Source: a virus
Strand: one strand, 5' to 3'
Length of the DNA stretch: 22,508 nt
Virus record (IMG/VR): IMGVR_UViG_3300033141_004526
Coordinates: 1-22,508 of that record
The position numbers and the translations under genes are program-made. Shown here piece after piece: positions 3,181 through 16,000 of this stretch (the first letter of the stretch is position 1; the number at the start of each line of letters is the position of its first letter). The notes beneath the pieces are model-generated. The model was given only the letters and a program-made list of their open reading frames with translations. It was not told where the DNA came from and searched no databases.

Positions 3181-3768
3181 TTATTCAGCAAGTCTTTTGA
3201 ACATATCATCATACTCAGCAATATCTTTTTTCAACCCATCTACAACGGACTGATGATAATAATTGACTGGAGGTCTCCAGCCGTCCTTATACTGCACTAC
3301 CTTATATGCTTCCTCAAGCTCGGCTTCGAGTCGGTCAATGTTATTGACTGCATGAAGTACAAATGCACAATTAGACGATAAATTTGCCGGGGGATTACCA
3401 TAAATTGAAGCCAATACATTTCCTTTGGTATCTTCAATATAGGGGCGGTTAACTCCTTCTTGCAATCTATACTTCTGTGACCCTCTCGTCTTGGTCTTTA
3501 TCTGATTCAATTCTCTTGCTTCCATTTCTCCAATTGTTTTTGTCAACCCAACAATACTACAAAGAGCCTCTTCAAGTTGTTTTTCCCAAACAGTTATCTT
3601 ATCTATCAACTTGTCAATTATCTTTGAAGCAAAATTTGCAATCTCTTTTGGAGTATCAACAGGTTCAGGATACTTCTCTCGCATTGGTACAACGTGTCCA
3701 GGCTTGGTATAGACAAGCATCTCACCTGCTTGGCATAAAGTTTTACCTACATATTTTAGCTGTTTCAT
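3181..3768 (-). CDS. Coiled-coil protein, 195 aa, unknown
   Basis: Starts after GGAGAAGGGAA and overlaps the end of recA by 26 bases. The first 45 residues look globular. Residues about 45-90 (SKIIDKLIDKITVWEKQLEEAL...) and 145-160 (NNIDRLEAELEEAY) are long helices with heptad-like hydrophobic spacing, and the middle contains a small beta segment (PYIEDTKGNVLASIYGNPPANL). The C-terminus is acidic. The NxxLIDRLEAE-type tail resembles many unknown phage early proteins. Position after recA suggests a role in replication or recombination, but the sequence itself does not show one. Confidence 0.75.
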   Translation of the reverse strand: MKQLKYVGKTLCQAGEMLVYTKPGHVVPMREKYPEPVDTPKEIANFASKIIDKLIDKITVWEKQLEEALCSIVGLTKTIGEMEARELNQIKTKTRGSQKYRLQEGVNRPYIEDTKGNVLASIYGNPPANLSSNCAFVLHAVNNIDRLEAELEEAYKVVQYKDGWRPPVNYYHQSVVDGLKKDIAEYDDMFKRLAE

Positions 3769-4729
3769 TTCCCTTCTCCAGTTTCAAAATCAACTCAGCC
3801 ACTATTTCTGGGCTATTTTCCATAAACTCTATTGCTTTTATCCTACCCTGACCTAACCGGCCACCGCAGTAATTATACCATGCACCAGACTTATCTATAA
3901 TGCCACGACTTACACACATATCCAACAAATTGCCGGTGCGGTCTACACCCTTATCAAAAACAATATCAAACTCAGTGTCTTTGAATGGGGGAGCCACCTT
4001 GTTCTTAACTATCCTTGCACGGACCCTGGAACCTATAGGACCACTATTGTCCTTTATAGTCATTATCTTTCGCAAGTCAATACGCACAGAAGCATAGAAC
4101 CTCAAGGCCCTGCCGCCACAAGTAGTTTCGGGATTGCCAAACATGACTCCAATTTTCATGCGTATCTGGTTAATAAAGATAATAATAGTGTTGCTGGTGT
4201 GGATAAGAGCGGCCATCTTCCTCATACCCTGTGACATTAGACGTGCCTGCAAACCTATATGTCTGTCACCCATATCCCCCTCAAGCTCAATTTTAGGTGT
4301 TAGAGCAGCTACAGAGTCGATTATGATAATATCTGCACCACCTTTTTCAGCAAGAGTCTCAGCAACTCCAAGAGCCTGCTCACCACAATTAGGCTGACAC
4401 AACAATAAATCCTTGGTCCTGACACCGATTTGTTTAGCCCATTCGAGATTAAGAGCATGTTCGGCGTCTATGTAAGCCGCTACGCCTCCGGCTTTTTGTG
4501 TTGAGGCAACAATAGCAAGAGCCAAAGTTGTTTTGCCGGATGATTCAGGACCATATATTTCACTGATACGGCCTTTAGGAATACCGCCACACCCCAATAT
4601 CTCATCGAGTGTCATAATTCCTGTAGAGATACTGTCAACTTTCGGCAGCTTTTTTCCAAGTTGCATGACAGCATTGGCTCCGAATTTGTCATTCACGTTA
4701 TTAACTATGTTCTTTATATTCTTTTTCAT
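3743..4729 (-). CDS. recA: RecA recombinase
   Basis: A 328-residue homologous-recombination ATPase that forms filaments on single-stranded DNA. Visible motifs are Walker A GPESSGKTT (60-68), the catalytic Glu in YIDAEHA (90), Walker B IIIIDSVAAL (134-143), loop L1 around EGDMGD (150-155), and FINQIR followed by the L2 loop and CGGRALRFYASVR (185-216). The C-terminal lobe (KSGAWYNYCGGRLGQGRIKAIEFM) is present, but the acidic tail of E. coli RecA is short here. It is closer to bacterial RecA than to phage UvsX. It starts inside the end of the membrane-protein gene (29-base overlap) with a weak ribosome site, so its translation may be coupled. Together with the polymerase it suggests recombination-dependent replication or repair. 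Confidence 0.95.
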   Translation of the reverse strand: MKKNIKNIVNNVNDKFGANAVMQLGKKLPKVDSISTGIMTLDEILGCGGIPKGRISEIYGPESSGKTTLALAIVASTQKAGGVAAYIDAEHALNLEWAKQIGVRTKDLLLCQPNCGEQALGVAETLAEKGGADIIIIDSVAALTPKIELEGDMGDRHIGLQARLMSQGMRKMAALIHTSNTIIIFINQIRMKIGVMFGNPETTCGGRALRFYASVRIDLRKIMTIKDNSGPIGSRVRARIVKNKVAPPFKDTEFDIVFDKGVDRTGNLLDMCVSRGIIDKSGAWYNYCGGRLGQGRIKAIEFMENSPEIVAELILKLEKGNETAKICR

Positions 4730-6009: not shown

Positions 6010-6244
6010 CTTGAGTCTCCTGAAGTTTTTTTAAGCGTATTCGTTCTTTTTTGTAGTATTTGTCTGCTTCAACTGAAGCTGTTGAAGCCATGATAGCAAC
6101 CTGTTTACTCCAACAACAATGCTTAAACTTCTTTTTAGACCCACAATAACAGGGGTCATTGCGACCCAACACAATCTGATTACGGTGTGTTTTTGTGTTA
6201 ATAGGTCTACGATTTAGCCATTGTATTGTTTCTACTTGATTCAT
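5978..6244 (-). CDS. SEC-C motif protein, 88 aa
   Basis: Residues 27-44 read GRNDPCYCGSKKKFKHCC, the SEC-C zinc motif CxCx8CC (Cys 32, 34, 43, 44) named for its presence in SecA, where it binds zinc and partner proteins. The flanks are basic, and a helical tail (EADKYYKKERIRLKKLQE) follows. The start codon overlaps the polymerase stop by one base (TAATG). In phages such isolated SEC-C proteins have no fixed role; protein-protein binding or nucleic-acid contact is possible. Confidence 0.85.
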   Translation of the reverse strand: MNQVETIQWLNRRPINTKTHRNQIVLGRNDPCYCGSKKKFKHCCWSKQVAIMASTASVEADKYYKKERIRLKKLQETQDATPVQQKNN

Positions 6245-8109
6245 TATTTTGCTTCCGAATACACTTTGCCACTTGAAACCTTTGCCTCAAGTGGGATGTC
6301 AAGTTTAACCGCTGTCACCATACACTTTTCAATAGCTTTCATTGCAGGGACAAGGAACGCATCTTTGACTTCGTATACCAATTCATCGTGAACAGTCAGT
6401 ACAAATTGTAGTCCCCACTTCTTATTTTTCAAACCAACTTCACGAACCTTTGTAGCAGCAAGTTTAAGCATGTCTGCTGAGTAACCCTGTATCTTAAAGT
6501 TAAACGCTTGACGAATAACAGCTTTACTAATATGCTCCCACCGACGTTTACGACCGGCCATATTTCTGACCCATCCTTGAACCTCTAATTCACGAATACA
6601 TCTGTCAATACCTTGCTTAATGCCAGGATACACAGATAAAAACTTATCAAGCAAACGCTGTGCTTCTTTTTCTGTTACTCCAATATTACGTGCAATACCA
6701 ACAGCAGTTGACCCGTAGACTACTGGGAAGTTAAAGCCATTCTTTCCTTTGTGGCGCTCATCTTTATACTTCTTTTTTATATCGTCATATCCTTTGTGGC
6801 GTGTGCACATTTCTTTATTTGATAAACCTAAATCAAAGAGAAGATTCCCTGTTACAAGATGCAAGTCCAAATACTCGCGGAAAGCCTCAAGCAATTTGGC
6901 GTCTTGGGTTTCTTGGGCCAACACTCTTAATTCCTGCCCGGCATAATCAGCAACTATAAAAGTCTTGCCTTTTGAAGAAATGAAACAACCTCTACAGTCA
7001 ATACCCAAATCTTTATTTAACCGTCTCAGGTTTTGTAGGTTTGGTTCAGAGGAAGTAAGTCTCCCGGTTCGTGCAATGCAGTTATTAAAATTAGCTCGAA
7101 CCCTGCCATCTTTGCCAGTTGCCTTGAGGATAGGGACAGTAAAATTACTATGGATATGTTTTGCAGTACGAAACTTACGCAATTCATAGATAAAAGGATG
7201 GGCACTAAACTTTTCAAGAACCTCTTTGTCCAACTTTAATTGTCCTTTCGGATACATTTTGGAGGGTGATGTTCTATCAGTAAGTTTTATGCCCAATTCG
7301 TCAACAATGATTGGTATTACCTGTGTGTTACTGCTAAACTTAATTGGTGACTTAACAACATCCAAATCTTCCCAAAAAGCCTTTTGAACACTATAATCTC
7401 TACCAGTTAATCTCAGAAGCTCTACTTCAGAATCCTGCTCAATACCAACAACAGAATCTTCTATATCTTCAACAGCTTCTTTATCAACCAAAATACCGTT
7501 CACAGCAAGGTCCATCAAACAAAATTGGAATGGCATCTCTTCTTTGAAGAATAGATGTTGAAGTCTTTCTTGGTGTAACTCTTTGTAAAATATCTCATGC
7601 AATCCCCAAGTCCATATTGGGTCGTTCATTGCATAGGAATAAAACTCTTCAGTATTAGTACCACACTTAGAAGCTACATCATATTTTTTAATCTCATCAA
7701 ATGGCACTCCAAGTTTGGTCATTGCTAAATCTTTTAACCCCTTCAATCCACACTCATCAAGAAGGTGGGCTGCTGTCATGGTACAGAAAATATCCTTCGT
7801 GACATTTCTTATACCAATCTTCCACAAAACCATCAAGTCAAAAGGAGCATTATGAAATATCAATCTATGAATTTTATCTTTGAACATCATCTTCAAATAT
7901 TTGAGAGTGTCTTTCCAACCCACTTTAGAAAATGCTCCATGGTCAATATAGCAAGCACACTTGCCATCGCAAAAACCCATACCGTCAAGTTTAAGAATAG
8001 AGTAATCCAAACTCGTTGTCTCTGTGTCACAAGCTAATTTGTCCGTATTGGCTATTACATCAAACCAGTGTGCGACATCAGAGTACGATTTAAGAACCTG
8101 CTTTTTCAT
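6244..8109 (-). CDS. Family A DNA polymerase with 3'-5' exonuclease
   Basis: The frame opens with TTG at 8121, but the ATG at 8109 is preferred, giving 621 residues. The exonuclease half has CDTETT (metal-binding Asp28 and Glu30), HNAPFD (86-91) and YAMND (159-163). The polymerase half has RTGRLTSSEPNLQNL (347-361), motif A VADYAGQELR (386-395, Asp388), motif B RHKGKNGFNFPVVYG (452-466) and motif C VHDE (573-576). No 5'-3' nuclease domain is present, as in T7-type replicative enzymes. Motif B has one extra residue between its Lys and Phe relative to E. coli Pol I. It is the second gene of the operon and overlaps the preceding one by 20 bases. No helicase or primase is seen in the window. Confidence 0.97.
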   Translation of the reverse strand: MKKQVLKSYSDVAHWFDVIANTDKLACDTETTSLDYSILKLDGMGFCDGKCACYIDHGAFSKVGWKDTLKYLKMMFKDKIHRLIFHNAPFDLMVLWKIGIRNVTKDIFCTMTAAHLLDECGLKGLKDLAMTKLGVPFDEIKKYDVASKCGTNTEEFYSYAMNDPIWTWGLHEIFYKELHQERLQHLFFKEEMPFQFCLMDLAVNGILVDKEAVEDIEDSVVGIEQDSEVELLRLTGRDYSVQKAFWEDLDVVKSPIKFSSNTQVIPIIVDELGIKLTDRTSPSKMYPKGQLKLDKEVLEKFSAHPFIYELRKFRTAKHIHSNFTVPILKATGKDGRVRANFNNCIARTGRLTSSEPNLQNLRRLNKDLGIDCRGCFISSKGKTFIVADYAGQELRVLAQETQDAKLLEAFREYLDLHLVTGNLLFDLGLSNKEMCTRHKGYDDIKKKYKDERHKGKNGFNFPVVYGSTAVGIARNIGVTEKEAQRLLDKFLSVYPGIKQGIDRCIRELEVQGWVRNMAGRKRRWEHISKAVIRQAFNFKIQGYSADMLKLAATKVREVGLKNKKWGLQFVLTVHDELVYEVKDAFLVPAMKAIEKCMVTAVKLDIPLEAKVSSGKVYSEAK

Positions 8110-8287
8110 TATGCCTACCAATACCGTCCCACATATTTATCCAACATTCATCACAAATATAACCTGGAAATTGTAACATTATGCTATAGTCAACATAAGG
8201 TTTAAGACTATAATATCGTGAAGTTGGTGGGTGTAATTTACAAATTCTACGCTTAAAACATTTGGTACATTTACGTCGTTTTTTCAT
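8090..8287 (-). CDS. Small Cys-rich basic protein, 65 aa
   Basis: First gene of the leftward operon. The ATG at 8287 is chosen because GAGGTG lies nine bases upstream; the frame is open to 8317 but without a signal there. The 65-residue protein begins MKKRRKCTKCFKRRICKL and has CxxC at 7-10, Cys 16 and a second CxxC (CDEC, about 45-48), fitting a zinc finger with a very basic first knuckle. Nucleic-acid binding is likely, perhaps as an early regulator, but no family is recognised. It overlaps the polymerase start by 20 bases. Confidence 0.7.
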   Translation of the reverse strand: MKKRRKCTKCFKRRICKLHPPTSRYYSLKPYVDYSIMLQFPGYICDECWINMWDGIGRHNEKAGS

Positions 8288-8548: not shown

Positions 8549-8743
8549 ATGGTGGAACAAAAAAAAGAATTAGACAGAATTTTCTTCAGGAAGATACCTC
8601 TACGCACAATTGGAGCAGAAATTTTTGATAGGTCGCTGTCCCTTGAAGAATATGAAAAACTGAGAGATACTTATAGTGAATTTTATGAGTCAATCTCAGA
8701 GCGAAAAGCAAAAGAGATAAAACGATTACTTTATCTCCACTAA
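8549..8743 (+). CDS. Small charged helical protein, 64 aa, unknown
   Basis: First rightward gene after the promoter block. The ATG at 8549 is only two bases after GGAG, so the in-frame GTG at 8552 (five-base spacing) may be the true start. The 64-residue product is highly charged and helical, with an internal SLEEYEKLRDTYSEFYESIS segment and a basic end (ERKAKEIKRLLYLH). No family is recognised. Well-balanced composition and amphipathic spacing favour a real gene. Confidence 0.6.
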   Translation: MVEQKKELDRIFFRKIPLRTIGAEIFDRSLSLEEYEKLRDTYSEFYESISERKAKEIKRLLYLH

Positions 8744-8749
8744 AATAAA

Positions 8750-9224
8750 TTCGTGTTGTATTTGAACCAAAGATGTCAGGAAGGCAGATGCAGATACTTT
8801 TGGAAACTACAATGAAACGGTGGTTGGCTACTTCGTGGCTGTGCGTCCAGAACCTTGCACAAAGGATTAGTGTTAAGGGGGGTAATGCTGAAAGGCGGAA
8901 CGCAGTCCTCACCTCTCGGAACCGGACTACGGTCAGATACGGGATATTGTGTAGTGAAAGATTGAGGAAGCATATTCAAATAAGCAAGGCCATCATCTAT
9001 TTTTTATTGTCAAGACTTTCCCCTGAGAGTGTTGTCTAAAAACTTTCAAAAAGTGAATGTCTGACAATATAATCTTTTATAAAAATAGATAACTGGTTAA
9101 AAGTAGCGTTACGTCTACTAAGTATGACTAAAACAATCTTACATAGCTTTTCAGATGTAGATGGGGCAAGAGCAAAAATCGGAAAAGTAGCCTTTACCTG
9201 ATTCTTTGCCCCATCATTTTTATT
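8750..9224 (+). ncRNA. Candidate structured non-coding RNA next to tRNA
   Basis: No convincing gene lies between 8743 and 9290. The 88-codon frame at 8773 lacks a ribosome site and is Arg/Ser-rich with few acids. Many local stems fit: 8826-8831/8835-8840; CCTT/AAGG (8853-8856/8862-8865), whose loop GCACA is complementary to TGTGC at 8840-8844 (pseudoknot-like); AGTCC/GGACT (8904-8908/8924-8928); 8970-8985; a 7-bp closing stem ATTGTCA/TGACAAT (9006-9012/9062-9068) enclosing two hairpins (9015-9030, 9042-9054); 9102-9119; and a final long hairpin with T-tract. Large ornate phage RNAs (GOLLD, ROOL) often lie beside tRNA genes, so this is a possible relative, but stems were found by eye without folding statistics. 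Confidence 0.35.
9160..9224 (+). terminator. Long hairpin with T-tract
   Basis: A perfect 10-bp stem GATGGGGCAA/TTGCCCCATC (9160-9169/9206-9215) encloses further pairs AATC/GATT (9177-9180/9200-9203), GG/CC and AAAG/CTTT with loop TAGC, and is followed by ATTTTTATT. It would end the transcript begun near 8527 before the tRNA gene, or be a stable 3' end for the RNA upstream. Confidence 0.75.
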
Positions 9225-9289
9225 GATACCACGATGGTAAGCCAACCAAAAAGTTTTGTCTTGAGGCGCTGCTTACTTGGGTTAACGAT

Positions 9290-9362
9290 GTTGGCTGTAG
9301 CCTAATGGTTAAGGCATTGGCCTGTGACGCCGAGGATATGGGTTCGACTCCCATCAGCCACC
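9290..9362 (+). tRNA. tRNA-His(GUG)
   Basis: All arms fold: the D stem is GCCT/AGGC with loop AATGGTTA; the anticodon stem is TTGGC/GCCGA with loop CTGTGAC, giving anticodon GTG; the T stem is ATGGG/CCCAT with loop TTCGACT. The acceptor has T2-G7 paired with C66-A71 and the His identity pair G-1 (9290) with C73 (9362). Position 1 is T opposite C72, a mismatch where other His tRNAs usually have G-C. CCA is not encoded. It lies 35 bases before the terminase small-subunit gene and after a hairpin-rich stretch. Confidence 0.9.
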
Positions 9363-9396
9363 TTGATTAGTAGTCAGATGTTTTTTTGGATATGAT

Positions 9397-10086
9397 ATGG
9401 ACCCTTTAGATTTAATACCAGTTGAAAGCAAAATGCTCGGAGAAAAAGTGCAAACCTCCGGGAAGGTTGTCAAGTGGGACGTTTCTTTTCTTGAAACAGC
9501 TACCCGATTAGTTGCTGCTGGTATGACTGAAAAAGAAGTTGGTTATTTTTTGGGGGTTAAATTAAAAGATATACGGTCTTGGAAACGAAAGTACCCACTT
9601 TTCAAAAAGGCTTGTTTGAAGGGTCGAGAGCTTGCAAAGAATTACTTGATTGCAAGAATGATTAAGACGGCTGCTGGTTATGATTATGTTGAGAAGAATG
9701 TTAAGATTAAATACAAAAAGGATAAAGAAACGGGGAAGATGATTGAGCAACCTGCGGAGGTTAGTGAGTTTCATAAACACCAGAAAGCAGACCCGGCTTT
9801 GCTTGTGTTTGCTTTAACAAATATGTCGAGACAGTTAAAAGATGAAATCCCCTGGTTAAGTCAGCACCGAATACAGGTTGATGAGAATAAGACTGTTAAT
9901 ATTAAATTAAGTGGTAAGGTTATATCAGAACAGATAGATAGATTGGCTGGGGCTTTGGGACAGGAGACCATTATTGATGCTGAATTTGAGAAAGATAAAA
10001 AGTCCAAAGCAATTCTTCCAGGAGTTTCCAAAAGACGTAAGAAAAAATCTAAAGTGGAGAAAGAAACTCCACACACTTTGTCTTAA
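9397..10086 (+). CDS. Terminase small subunit
   Basis: A 229-residue DNA-recognition subunit of the packaging motor. After an N-terminal extension, residues 31-97 hold the usual helix-turn-helix and helical core: LETATRLVAAGMTEKEVGYF, then LGVKLKDIRSWKRKYPLFKK, then LAKNYLIARMIKTAAGYDY. The middle contains HKHQKADPALLVFALTNM, a pattern common in terminase small subunits, and the tail is very basic (KRRKKKSKVEK). The start ATG at 9397 follows GGATATGAT, a modest ribosome site. The last 110 bases overlap the large-subunit gene. Confidence 0.88.
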   Translation: MDPLDLIPVESKMLGEKVQTSGKVVKWDVSFLETATRLVAAGMTEKEVGYFLGVKLKDIRSWKRKYPLFKKACLKGRELAKNYLIARMIKTAAGYDYVEKNVKIKYKKDKETGKMIEQPAEVSEFHKHQKADPALLVFALTNMSRQLKDEIPWLSQHRIQVDENKTVNIKLSGKVISEQIDRLAGALGQETIIDAEFEKDKKSKAILPGVSKRRKKKSKVEKETPHTLS

Positions 10087-12019
10087 AGACGAAGGGTATA
10101 GAAAGACTTATTTTGAGTGTTGTTTGTTAGAGCCTCGACTAATGTTCAACACGGCTTTTTGGGTTTACGATGCAGAGGCTCCAGTGGGCAGGAAGCATGT
10201 GCCTTTTATTTTGTGGCCACATCAAGAAGTAGGTATTGCTGAATTACATTACGCTGCCGAGCACGGCAATAATCTGATATTCGATAAGAGTCGTAAAGAA
10301 GGTGCAACTGAAATAATCATTAAATACCTTGCTTCACGATTTTTGTTGATACCAGATGAGAGCTTTCTTGTTGGCTCCCGCAAGGAAGATTTAGTAGACC
10401 AATCAACCGAGATTAAGGGTGATAGGGTGACAGGCCCACACCAAACTTTGTTTCATAAGATTTTGTATGCTTTGGTTAATTTGCCTCCGTATATGCAGCC
10501 CAATATTTTGAAGAGGCACAGATTTGTTGAGAATTTGTGGAATGGGTCAAAGATAGAAGGGGAGGCAACTACAGATAATTTTGGTGCTGGTAACAGAGCA
10601 AAGATTGTTCTTGTCGATGAGTGTGCTCGCATAGAGCCTGCTGTTGCTCAATACATTATTGATAATATACACGATACATCTCCTTGTTGTGTATACAATT
10701 CAACACATTTTCGTTGGGGAGCGGCCCATCCATATAATCGTTTAATAGCCGGTGGAAAAGTAAAAGTAGTGACGCTGGGTTATGAAGAAAATCCCACAAA
10801 GAATATGGGTTTATACACATCCCCCGAACCTGACATAATTGAAATATCTGATATTGACTATTATAGGAGAATTTGTCCTGAGATATTTAATAAGATAGAC
10901 AAACATAAGCCCTTTTCCAACAGTGACTTAGTGCTTCAGATAGAAGAATCATCTCTCGAAATTCAAGAGAAAATGGCGGAGGTCAAATTTGTTGCTGATG
11001 GTGGGATGGGGACATTCAACCGCCCTCGCAGTATTTGGTTCGACGCCGAAGAGGCGAGTGGGCGTAGGTTGCAAGACCTTGCTATAAATGTACTTAGGAT
11101 TCCACAAGGCTCAGCAGACCAGTTTTTCGACCACAACTCTCTTGAGCTTATTCGTGGGAAGTATGTGCGTGACCCAGATATTATTGGGAAGTTATCTTAT
11201 GATACAATTAAAGGTAAATTGTGTAATATAGAATTTACTCCTGGTCGCAGTAAGGATGGTCTCAAATGGTGGGGCAAACTGGTAGATGGTAAGCCAGACC
11301 CAACACACAATTATATAGTATCATGTGACATATCCAGAGGGACCGGGGCTTCTAATTCTGTATTGACAATAGCAGATGTAAACTTGCATGAAGTTGTAGG
11401 GCTATATGTTGACCCGTTTATTGATGTCCCTGACTTTGCTGAATACGCCATAGCAATATGTAAATGGTGTAAGGGCGGAACCAGGGGGGCTTTTCTAATA
11501 TGGGAAGGAAACGGGCCAGGAGACACTTTCGCATCGAGGGTGAAAAAGTTAGGGTATCCATTCATTTATTATCGGGTAAATGAGAGTACCAGGGCAAGGA
11601 AGAAAGCAACCAACCCTCTTCCTGGTTGGTGGTCAACTACAGGTATGAATGGAACAAAGAACAAACTTCTTGGAGAGTTTGATGCAGCATTAGCTGAATC
11701 ACTTAAAGACGAGAGGATGTATCCATATTTAATTATCCACGATAATCAAACAGTCAATGAATTAAATGACTATATTTTCTTAGGTGACAGGGTTGATGTT
11801 GGTTTAGCATCTCAGGCTTTAGAAACAAGTGGAGCCAAGTTTGCTCATGGTGACAGAGTAATATCTGCTGCTTTGGTTATGTTGGCTTTGAAGGAGCAAC
11901 CAAAAGCCATTAGAAAGCAAGTGAAAGCTGTTCGTAAGAATTGTATGCAAGCCAGGATAGATGAGCGTAGAGCAGCAAAAAGGAAAAAGAAAGTAGCCAG
12001 AAAATTTTTGAATGATTGA
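9977..12019 (+). CDS. Terminase large subunit
   Basis: 680 residues from the ATG at 9977, chosen because AGGAGA (9962-9967) lies nine bases upstream; a TTG one codon earlier is less likely. The ATPase half has a Walker A-like DKSRKEGAT (103-111), Walker B KIVLVDECARIE (209-220) and a coupling motif YNSTHF (240-245). The nuclease half has Asp451 (SCDISRG), Glu510 (LIWEGNGPGD) and Asp626 (AHGDRVISAAL), the RNase H-like triad that cuts concatemers. The Walker A is the degenerate type seen in many terminases. It overlaps the small-subunit gene by 110 bases, longer than usual, and the next gene by eight. Confidence 0.93.
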   Translation: MLNLRKIKSPKQFFQEFPKDVRKNLKWRKKLHTLCLKDEGYRKTYFECCLLEPRLMFNTAFWVYDAEAPVGRKHVPFILWPHQEVGIAELHYAAEHGNNLIFDKSRKEGATEIIIKYLASRFLLIPDESFLVGSRKEDLVDQSTEIKGDRVTGPHQTLFHKILYALVNLPPYMQPNILKRHRFVENLWNGSKIEGEATTDNFGAGNRAKIVLVDECARIEPAVAQYIIDNIHDTSPCCVYNSTHFRWGAAHPYNRLIAGGKVKVVTLGYEENPTKNMGLYTSPEPDIIEISDIDYYRRICPEIFNKIDKHKPFSNSDLVLQIEESSLEIQEKMAEVKFVADGGMGTFNRPRSIWFDAEEASGRRLQDLAINVLRIPQGSADQFFDHNSLELIRGKYVRDPDIIGKLSYDTIKGKLCNIEFTPGRSKDGLKWWGKLVDGKPDPTHNYIVSCDISRGTGASNSVLTIADVNLHEVVGLYVDPFIDVPDFAEYAIAICKWCKGGTRGAFLIWEGNGPGDTFASRVKKLGYPFIYYRVNESTRARKKATNPLPGWWSTTGMNGTKNKLLGEFDAALAESLKDERMYPYLIIHDNQTVNELNDYIFLGDRVDVGLASQALETSGAKFAHGDRVISAALVMLALKEQPKAIRKQVKAVRKNCMQARIDERRAAKRKKKVARKFLND

Positions 12020-12569
12020 GAGACAGGTGGAATTTCTAAATAAGATTTTTGATAAGTTATTGTCTTTGTTGCCACGCAGGATTTTTGTTGATCCGTTTGA
12101 GAGAGGTATAAGGATAACTTATTTGTGGAAGCAGAGGATTACGGACCTTGAACCTGGTGTTTATTTTATTTGGCCTTTGTTGCAGCAAGTTATCAGAATT
12201 GGTGTAAAGACGCAAACAATGGATTTGAGAAGCCAGTCAATTTTTACAAAAGACCACAAGGATATAATTATTTCTGGCTCTCTTATATACAAAATAAGAG
12301 ATGCCAGAAAAGCTATTTGTGAGGTGATGGATTTTGATAAGGGTATGTGTGTTCTTTCTCTTGGGATTATAAAGAGATACGTGTCACAACATACACTTAA
12401 TGAATTAGTAAATACAGATGATTTAACAAAAGAAATAAAGAGGGAAATTTCTACCACTTGTTCTAAATGGGGTATTTATTTACAGAGTGTTGAGATAACA
12501 GATACTGGCAGAGGTAGAAATATTCGATTATTGACAAACAATGAAAATCCTATGATGGAAGTTGTGTAA
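12012..12569 (+). CDS. SPFH/band-7 domain protein
   Basis: A 185-residue protein whose residues about 27-165 match the stomatin/prohibitin/flotillin/HflK-C (band 7) core: VDPFERGIRITYL, then LEPGVYFIWPL, TMDLRSQSIFTKDHKDIIISGSL with the typical change to YKIRDARKAI, and a helical end with WGIYLQSVEIT. These proteins usually scaffold membrane microdomains and regulate proteases. Here no transmembrane segment is evident, though the N-terminal helix (LNKIFDKLLSLLP) is amphipathic. The start overlaps the terminase stop by eight bases without a clear ribosome site, so translation is likely coupled. Its place between terminase and portal is unusual. Confidence 0.85.
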   Translation: MIERQVEFLNKIFDKLLSLLPRRIFVDPFERGIRITYLWKQRITDLEPGVYFIWPLLQQVIRIGVKTQTMDLRSQSIFTKDHKDIIISGSLIYKIRDARKAICEVMDFDKGMCVLSLGIIKRYVSQHTLNELVNTDDLTKEIKREISTTCSKWGIYLQSVEITDTGRGRNIRLLTNNENPMMEVV

Positions 12570-14327: not shown

Positions 14328-15020
14328 ATGTGGACAAGATTTGATAAGAGGTTTTATCCGGCTTTGTTAGTGTTGATAATTGTCGTGGTTTGTTTGTGTG
14401 TATGTATGCAGCTCAAACAGACACAGCGAATTAATTTTGCCAACGTAATGGAGTCTGTCGTTCACATTTCTGTCGATGCTGAGTATGGTGGTTGGCAAGG
14501 GTCTGGTGTTTACATCGGCGATGGTTTAATACTTACGGCAGGCCATGTTGTAGATGGTGCTGAGAGCTTTACTGTGACATTTGAAAATGGGTGTGTCTAT
14601 GATTCAAATGATTTTTACCAAGAAGAAATGAGTGACGTAGGTTTTATACTTATCGAAGATGTTGATTGTCACACGCCCATACCATTTGACAATAGAAGTC
14701 TTGACCGAGGTGAGGCGGCTTGGGTTTTTGGAAGCCCTTACGGAACAGAATTTTTATTCACGGTATCCGAGGGTATAGTTTCAAACAATACACTGACTTG
14801 TGGTGGATTTTTTGGTGAGAAGTCAATCTTCATGGTTGATGCTGCTTCCTACCCCGGAAACTCTGGAGGACCTGTCGTTGATTCCGAGGGTGAAATCATA
14901 GGAATTTTAGTTGGGGGTTATGGTTATTCAGATAATTTGAGTATTTGTATTCGAGTAGATGTAATTGTACTTTCACTTGATAAATATTTGGCCAAGTTAG
15001 CTCTTGAAAGGTTGAAATAA
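14328..15020 (+). CDS. Membrane-anchored trypsin-like serine protease
   Basis: A 230-residue protein after AGGAGATAGAAA. Residues 11-28 (PALLVLIIVVVCLCVCMQ) form a signal anchor. The rest is a chymotrypsin/DegP-type fold with the full triad: His73 in LTAGHVVD, Asp103 in SDVGFILI and Ser179 in GNSGGPVVD, plus the oxyanion loop YPGNSG. No PDZ domain follows. Tailed phages normally encode S78, S14, S49 or T4-type maturation proteases between portal and capsid, and none of these is present here. This enzyme may therefore process capsid or scaffold, or act at the envelope; the membrane anchor argues for the latter. It overlaps the next gene by one base. Confidence 0.9.
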   Translation: MWTRFDKRFYPALLVLIIVVVCLCVCMQLKQTQRINFANVMESVVHISVDAEYGGWQGSGVYIGDGLILTAGHVVDGAESFTVTFENGCVYDSNDFYQEEMSDVGFILIEDVDCHTPIPFDNRSLDRGEAAWVFGSPYGTEFLFTVSEGIVSNNTLTCGGFFGEKSIFMVDAASYPGNSGGPVVDSEGEIIGILVGGYGYSDNLSICIRVDVIVLSLDKYLAKLALERLK

Positions 15021-15733: not shown

Positions 15734-16000
15734 ATGAGAATTGAGCCATTAAATGATATAGTGTTGTTGACGGCAGTTAAGGCAGAAAGCAAATCGGAAG
15801 GTGGTATTGCATTTCCTGATACTTACAAGAAAGAGAATGATAAATTGGTAGAGGTTGTTGATGTTGGTCCTGATGTTAAGTTGATAAAGAAAGGGATGCG
15901 AGTAATATGTAATGCTTATGGGGCGAATGTTGCTGAGTTGGGTGGTGTTCGTTATCTTTTGCAAAAAGAAGAGATGATTCTCGGTATAGTTAAAAATTAG
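15734..16000 (+). CDS. GroES-like co-chaperonin
   Basis: An 88-residue protein after GGGGATAGAAG. Its sequence follows the Cpn10 pattern: IEPLNDIVLL (3-12), ESKSEGGIAFPDTYKKE with the mobile loop (18-34), VVDVGPDVKLIKKGMRVICNAYGANV, then GGVRYLLQKEEMILGIV at the end. GroES caps GroEL and sets its folding chamber. Phages that carry a version (T4 gp31 is the known example) use it to fold the major capsid protein with the host GroEL. Its position just upstream of the scaffold and capsid genes supports that role. No GroEL gene is seen, so host GroEL must be used. Confidence 0.9.
   Translation: MRIEPLNDIVLLTAVKAESKSEGGIAFPDTYKKENDKLVEVVDVGPDVKLIKKGMRVICNAYGANVAELGGVRYLLQKEEMILGIVKN

Follow-up and report, generated by a model that had tools for sequence, protein, structure and literature searches.

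A large structured RNA encoded between a small conserved gene and terS in five related phage contigs

The window, that is, the whole stretch of DNA that was analyzed, is a 22.5-kb virus fragment in which a leftward replication block faces a rightward block. The rightward genes are arranged in the order g8549, a gap, tRNA-His, terS, terL, portal and further genes. The question raised by this locus is what the gap contains, as a preliminary description found no credible protein there and proposed instead a large, structured non-coding phage RNA. The flanking genes and those of the leftward block are as follows:

3743–4729, leftward block: UvsX/RecA-like gene
6244–8121, leftward block: polA
8549–8743, plus strand: g8549, a small conserved gene (64 aa) upstream of the RNA, its order kept in the homologues
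9290–9363, plus strand: tRNA-His (GTG), outside the conserved element and absent from the homologues
9397–10086, plus strand: terS, the terminase small subunit gene, downstream of the RNA (phrog_309, synteny)

Further along, the window encodes an SPFH/Band 7 domain protein between terL and portal (12012–12569; Pfam E 8e-21). This is unusual cargo for a phage head module, and tblastn matches to it lie beside the portal gene in contigs L012 and L020. The head gene block also includes a trypsin-like serine protease (14328–15020) and a GroES-like co-chaperonin, Cpn10 (15734–16000).

Single-protein scans with TerS and TerL returned no relatives and an alignment-guided TerL scan was needed. Here, an alignment of distant TerL proteins was used to reach the relatives, and a second alignment was then built from the true ones. 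Four related phage contigs, L007, L018, L088 and L091, were found via their terminase and DNA polymerase genes, with terminases that are 57–60% identical. Duplicates were merged (L007 = L090 = L160; L018 = L116 = L170; L088 = L171; L091 is single). The order polA (leftward), g8549, RNA, terS and terL (all rightward) is common to all five contigs, and a related element occupies the g8549–terS gap of each of the four relatives. In six other contigs (L019, L020, L021, L124, L126 and L128) the TerL matches break at approximately residues 263–297, the additional sequence reaching ~600 nt in L021 (1719–2317); terL in these contigs may contain an insertion, intron or intein.

Searches beyond these contigs added no members. 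A scan of bacterial and archaeal genomes produced no TerL relative, and BLAST against named phages gave no usable DNA match, what it returned being tRNA-His, low-complexity sequence or marginal matches attributable to chance. Viral contigs were also scanned with the polymerase and, three times, with DNA patterns, which yielded zero additional members. The sole new viral pattern match, L172, falls within coding sequence of an unrelated phage and was discarded, as were 11 matches of the same pattern in genome contigs, where helix P1 (see below) is broken in every case and none is near related genes. Overall, the P1-based scans recovered three true members with P1 intact, and the 12 chance matches in unrelated sequence are all P1-broken. 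When the same architecture was sought elsewhere in the terminase family, none was convincing. One region, L109 4821–5260, is G-rich and hairpin-rich, lies upstream of terS and has an architecture score above that of its own shuffles; its hairpin is inside a small gene. Since the RNA was found in just five contigs of the collections searched, the class is either narrow or undersampled.

Does the gap encode a protein? The three open frames in the window gap (8773–9039, and 8776–8979 and 9036–9245 on the minus strand) had no tblastn match in any relative, so that no frame is common to the homologues. The frame at 8773–9039, whose conservation had been named in advance as one observation that would overturn an RNA, also lacked any PHROGs or Pfam match. 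As for folding, the 8744–9289 segment has a better predicted fold than 99 of its 100 shuffled versions (z = −2.46); taken alone, this single-sequence statistic would be weak evidence. The compensatory changes that had been suggested as a check were found in the homologous regions, with both long-range helices, P0 and P1, supported by covariation in all five members. With compensatory changes across the homologues and no conserved protein frame, the proposal of a large, structured non-coding phage RNA is upheld. The best-supported part of the gap is 8770–9222, leaving 9223–9289, which precedes tRNA-His, outside. Its features, all on the plus strand, are:

8770–9222: conserved structured RNA, which begins with the AAAGA-P0 element and runs as far as the T-tract that follows the terminal hairpin (homologues in place, anchor spacing, covariation)
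8776–8785: P0 5′ strand, TCAGG-AAGGC, whose partner is the terminal-hairpin loop (homologues pair over 9–13 bp with different sequences)
8827–8833: P1 5′ strand, GCTACTT, after a conserved GTTG (compensatory changes in L007/L018, L088 and L091)
8842–8904: P2, TGCGTCC (8842–8848) with GG-A-ACGCA (8897–8904), tentative in the window; an alternative to a pseudoknot at 8840–8865
8995–9090: P5, an A+T-rich hairpin, 8995–9012 with 9062–9090 (A+T-rich hairpin at the same place in L018/L088)
9101–9107: P1 3′ strand, AAGTAGC, after a conserved TAAAAG (covariation)
9140–9159: P6, a TACAT/ATGTA hairpin that abuts the terminal hairpin on its 5′ side (small hairpin whose stem differs in each member)
9160–9215: terminal hairpin, 11-bp stem, its loop holding the P0 3′ strand (all five members have a hairpin here)
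9190–9201: P0 3′ strand, GCCTT-TA-CCTGA, inside the terminal-hairpin loop, bulged by 2 nt in the window (p = 0.003 when pairing is restricted to the conserved position)
9216–9224: T-tract, ATTTTTATT, terminator-like (present in the window, L007 and L091; absent from L018 and L088)

P0 joins the 5′ element, which is preceded by a conserved AAAGA, to the loop of the 3′ hairpin approximately 420 nt away. It is a pseudoknot, since the 3′ strand sits in the terminal-hairpin loop in all five members. The P0 strands are GGAATGGACCC/GGGTCCATTCC in L007, GGAACGGCG/CGCCGTTCC in L091, GGAACGGAT/ATCCGTTCC in L018 and GACAAAATGGA/TCCATTTTGTC in L088. P1 closes a multi-helix domain of ~280 nt and reads GCTACTT/AAGTAGC in the window, GCCACTT/AAGTGGC in both L007 and L018, CCGACTT/AAGTCGG in L088 and GTGGCTT/AAGCCAC in L091. 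The spacing is similar throughout: in the order window, L007, L091, L018 and L088, P0 and P1 are separated by 36, 37, 40, 41 and 39 nt, and the P1 interior spans 267, 269, 273, 258 and 251 nt. The window is the most diverged member: its P0 has a bulge and does not rank first among ungapped stems, and its P2–P4 are uncertain.

The two helices were evaluated in several ways. When the P0 and P1 strands are joined, 75 of 75 cells are paired (100%) and 10 of the 15 pairs are changed on both sides, giving a covariation score of 0.733 versus 0.201 that was reached in 0 of 500 shuffles, with slid partners 31–48% paired; the register for this count was chosen by hand and the 2-nt bulge of the window removed, so these shuffle figures are optimistic. 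For the same reason, the fairer tests are a cross-matrix, position-restricted P0 pairing and unsupervised consensus folding. In the cross-matrix, the best partner of the P0 5′ segment is, for all four homologues, the loop of the same contig, and every P1 sequence variant is best paired with itself. Restricted to its position, with a bulge allowed, P0 pairing against shuffled segments gave p = 0.003 for the window, L007 and L018, 0.008 for L091 and 0.001 for L088. Further support came from the unsupervised consensus fold of the closest pair, L018 and L088, whose P1 domain reached −61.7 versus −16.8 ± 3.6 kcal/mol for shuffled columns. This corresponds to z = −12.4 on the plus strand and −5.4 on the minus strand, with 0 of 200 shuffles as good in each case. 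The whole element gave z = −8.2 and −2.9, respectively. The consensus contains 68 pairs, of which 13 are changed on both sides and 0 are broken. The L007/L091 pair is weaker (z = −1.7 for the P1 domain and −2.9 for the whole element), its minus strand scoring no weaker. Comparison of the homologues thus shows the predicted fold, strand and place of the RNA. Its existence and fold are close to certain, and that the predicted fold is conserved across 8770–9222 is very highly probable.

The preliminary description listed several stems, and P0, P1 and P6, which make up much of what matters, were absent from that list. A stem drawn around 9006–9068 was correctly seen: TATTGTCA and TGACAATA are present at 9005–9012 and 9062–9069 and form part of the A+T-rich hairpin with counterparts in L018 and L088. 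A small pseudoknot had also been drawn between TGTGC (8840–8844) and the loop GCACA (8857–8861) of a CCTT/AAGG hairpin (8853–8865). These elements exist and can be drawn; that they are shared is unsupported. The pairing is counted as unproven because L018 and L088 have P2, a long, nested and covarying stem, at this position, and a similar stem can be formed by the window sequence. P6 has stems of TGCAA/TTGCA in L007, TACAAA/TTTGTA in L091 and TTTGC/GCAAA in L018, with only 3 bp in L088. The minimum-energy pairing of TGGTTGGCT (8821) with AGCCAACCA (9240) was rejected as due to chance, because it is incompatible with P1 and falls beyond the conserved part.

The final stem with its T-tract, in turn, proved real. 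Its strands, GATGGGGCAAG and TTTGCCCCATC, lie at 9160–9170 and 9205–9215 and are followed by ATTTTTATT. Of the features of an intrinsic terminator, the hairpin is present in five of five members and the T-tract in three of five. The RNA fills the space between g8549 and terS, with P0 starting 15–85 nt past the g8549 stop codon. In L091, L018 and L088, the hairpin ends 14–28 nt before the terS start codon, and other genes intervene in the window (tRNA-His) and in L007 (HNH-type). The latter we take to be of the HNH family from a reading of its sequence rather than from a database match. HNH-type small proteins are encoded near the RNA in L007, L018 and L088. In L018 (2858–3208) and L088 (4460–4825), a g8549-like protein follows, as a fusion, an N-terminal part that contains Cys and resembles the one in these nearby HNH-type proteins.

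To which class does the RNA belong? GOLLD and ROOL, the comparison made at the outset, are large ornate phage RNAs often found near tRNA genes, and their RNA multimers form through kissing loops; GOLLD is raised during lysis and is sometimes beside tRNA genes (PMC12286853). The window RNA resembles ROOL as a large, phage-encoded RNA with pseudoknots, ROOL often being near tRNA genes, and GOLLD as a large, structured phage RNA (PMC12286853). Unlike both, it has no Rfam match. Its fold of P0, P1, P6 and terminal hairpin, with a tRNA neighbor only in the window, sets it apart from ROOL, and it differs from GOLLD in being approximately half the size (GOLLD is often >800 nt) and in lying between g8549 and terS. 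No Rfam 15 family, including GOLLD and ROOL, matched the element of the window or of the homologues at the gathering threshold, the only Rfam matches in the window being to tRNA. When the threshold was relaxed to E ≤ 10 for the window, L088 and L007 elements, the GOLLD and ROOL models still gave no match. As no Rfam family fits, the RNA is neither of the two. They are the nearest in kind to it, yet their models do not recognize it. The suggestion of "a new class or a diverged member" therefore stands for its first half by the Rfam test, and a diverged GOLLD or ROOL is not what was found. Adjacency to a tRNA gene, noted earlier for this comparison, did not hold as a property of the RNA: tRNA-His is present in the window only, with no tRNA in L007, L018, L088 or L091, so the regular tRNA neighbors of GOLLD and ROOL are missing and the adjacency is incidental. 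We rate the RNA as a new class of large phage RNA whose known distribution is narrow.

Regarding function, the best explanation, held at slightly better than even strength, is a stable, stand-alone RNA of ~450 nt, made in the late phase from the plus strand at 8770–9222. As the RNA fills the space from the g8549 stop to the hairpin, it is probably transcribed with g8549, and it would be made as the segment of the rightward (late) transcript that separates g8549 from terS. In the predicted fold, the ~280-nt domain closed by P1 is the core and P6 abuts the terminal hairpin, whose loop pairs with the 5′ element so that the start is tied to the end. The 3′ end would be set at this hairpin, by termination in the three members with a T-tract and by processing in the other two. 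By analogy to the large ornate phage RNAs, the released molecule may serve as a late-phase scaffold or regulator. A stand-alone RNA is favored by its size, its separation from terS in two of five members and its terminator-like ends in three.

The main rival is a cis-acting leader or attenuator in the late mRNA ahead of terS, which is a real contender that we consider rather less probable. Here, the terminal hairpin would be a conditional terminator or gate, and pairing of the early-made 5′ element with its loop would set polymerase or ribosome entry into the terminase/structural operon. The filled gap with P0 close behind the g8549 stop, the location where the late rightward genes begin and the T-tract of three members all suit this reading. 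In addition, the short distance to terS in L091, L018 and L088 and the missing T-tract of L018 and L088 count against a stand-alone RNA, and suit a leader equally. The tRNA gene in the window and the HNH-type gene in L007, both between the RNA and terS, argue against an obligatory terS leader. The absent T-tracts also weaken a conditional terminator, P0 pairs with the loop and so does not compete with a hairpin arm, and the RNA is far bigger than attenuators usually are. Like leaders of the HK022 put RNA type, it is folded, has a terminator-like hairpin and lies close to where a phage operon starts; unlike these, it is much larger, has a loop-to-5′-end pseudoknot and lacks the T-tract in two of five. 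The choice of a stand-alone RNA over a cis leader is an evenly balanced one.

The remaining explanations have far less weight. It is improbable that the RNA belongs to the DNA-packaging machine, or assembles itself into an RNA particle, and is encoded beside the terminase genes that it serves. Synteny with terS and terL in five of five members and a large, closed fold are consistent with it, and P0 could in principle be intermolecular, as in the kissing-loop multimers of GOLLD and ROOL (PMC12286853). The phi29 pRNA is likewise linked with DNA packaging, as the window RNA adjoins terminase genes; that RNA is 174 nt, whereas the window RNA is ~450 nt and, with its homologues, has no Rfam match to phi29-type pRNA or to any other family. 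Three more distant contigs of the same terminase family, L012, L103 and L165, have no comparable gap or RNA between g8549 and terS, so the RNA is dispensable for packaging by this terminase type; a packaging role is possible but not supported. A search of the literature on terminase-linked structured RNAs found nothing relevant. A DNA-level site, such as cos/pac or an attachment region, whose inverted repeats mimic RNA stems is very improbable: cos/pac sites often adjoin terS, yet compensatory changes preserve pairings over 280 and 420 nt, and L018 and L088 fold much better on the plus than on the minus strand. Finally, the HNH-type small proteins nearby and the clade restriction might suggest a mobile or self-splicing RNA, i.e., a group I/II intron remnant or HNH-associated element. 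This is the least probable of all, as no Rfam intron model matched the window, L088 and L007 elements even at E ≤ 10, the RNA always occupies one locus, and g8549 and terS are complete, separate genes rather than a split host gene, leaving no exon to join. The sequence GTGCGTCCAGA near 8841, considered as the possible start of a group II intron, was set aside as no intron match was obtained.

A bolder form of the stand-alone reading is that this is a new class of large phage RNA whose two ends are locked together by a pseudoknot, and that it arose in one clade of a phage family beside the terminase genes and acts in trans late in infection as a multimer, packaging aid or host-takeover scaffold; this is offered tentatively. 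Classes of large structured phage RNA are few and their functions open. With its covariation-backed fold, fixed place at the terminase genes and restricted clade, the RNA is a tractable test case, for which the RNA-less relatives in the same phage family (L012, L103 and L165) are a natural comparison.

Two other elements were observed in these contigs. Hairpins at L007 3106–3135 and L018 3225–3262 lie on opposite sides of the RNA, one downstream and the other upstream, and have different stems and an identical loop, GTGAACGCTTTGTGCCTGTA; they are not in the window and possibly represent a separate small structured element. In addition, a TTTTTAGYCYRAWAA-type sequence recurs near the divergent polA/late gene boundary (L007 2250, L018 2767, L088 4362, L017 3818 and L105 4183) and is possibly a promoter or operator.
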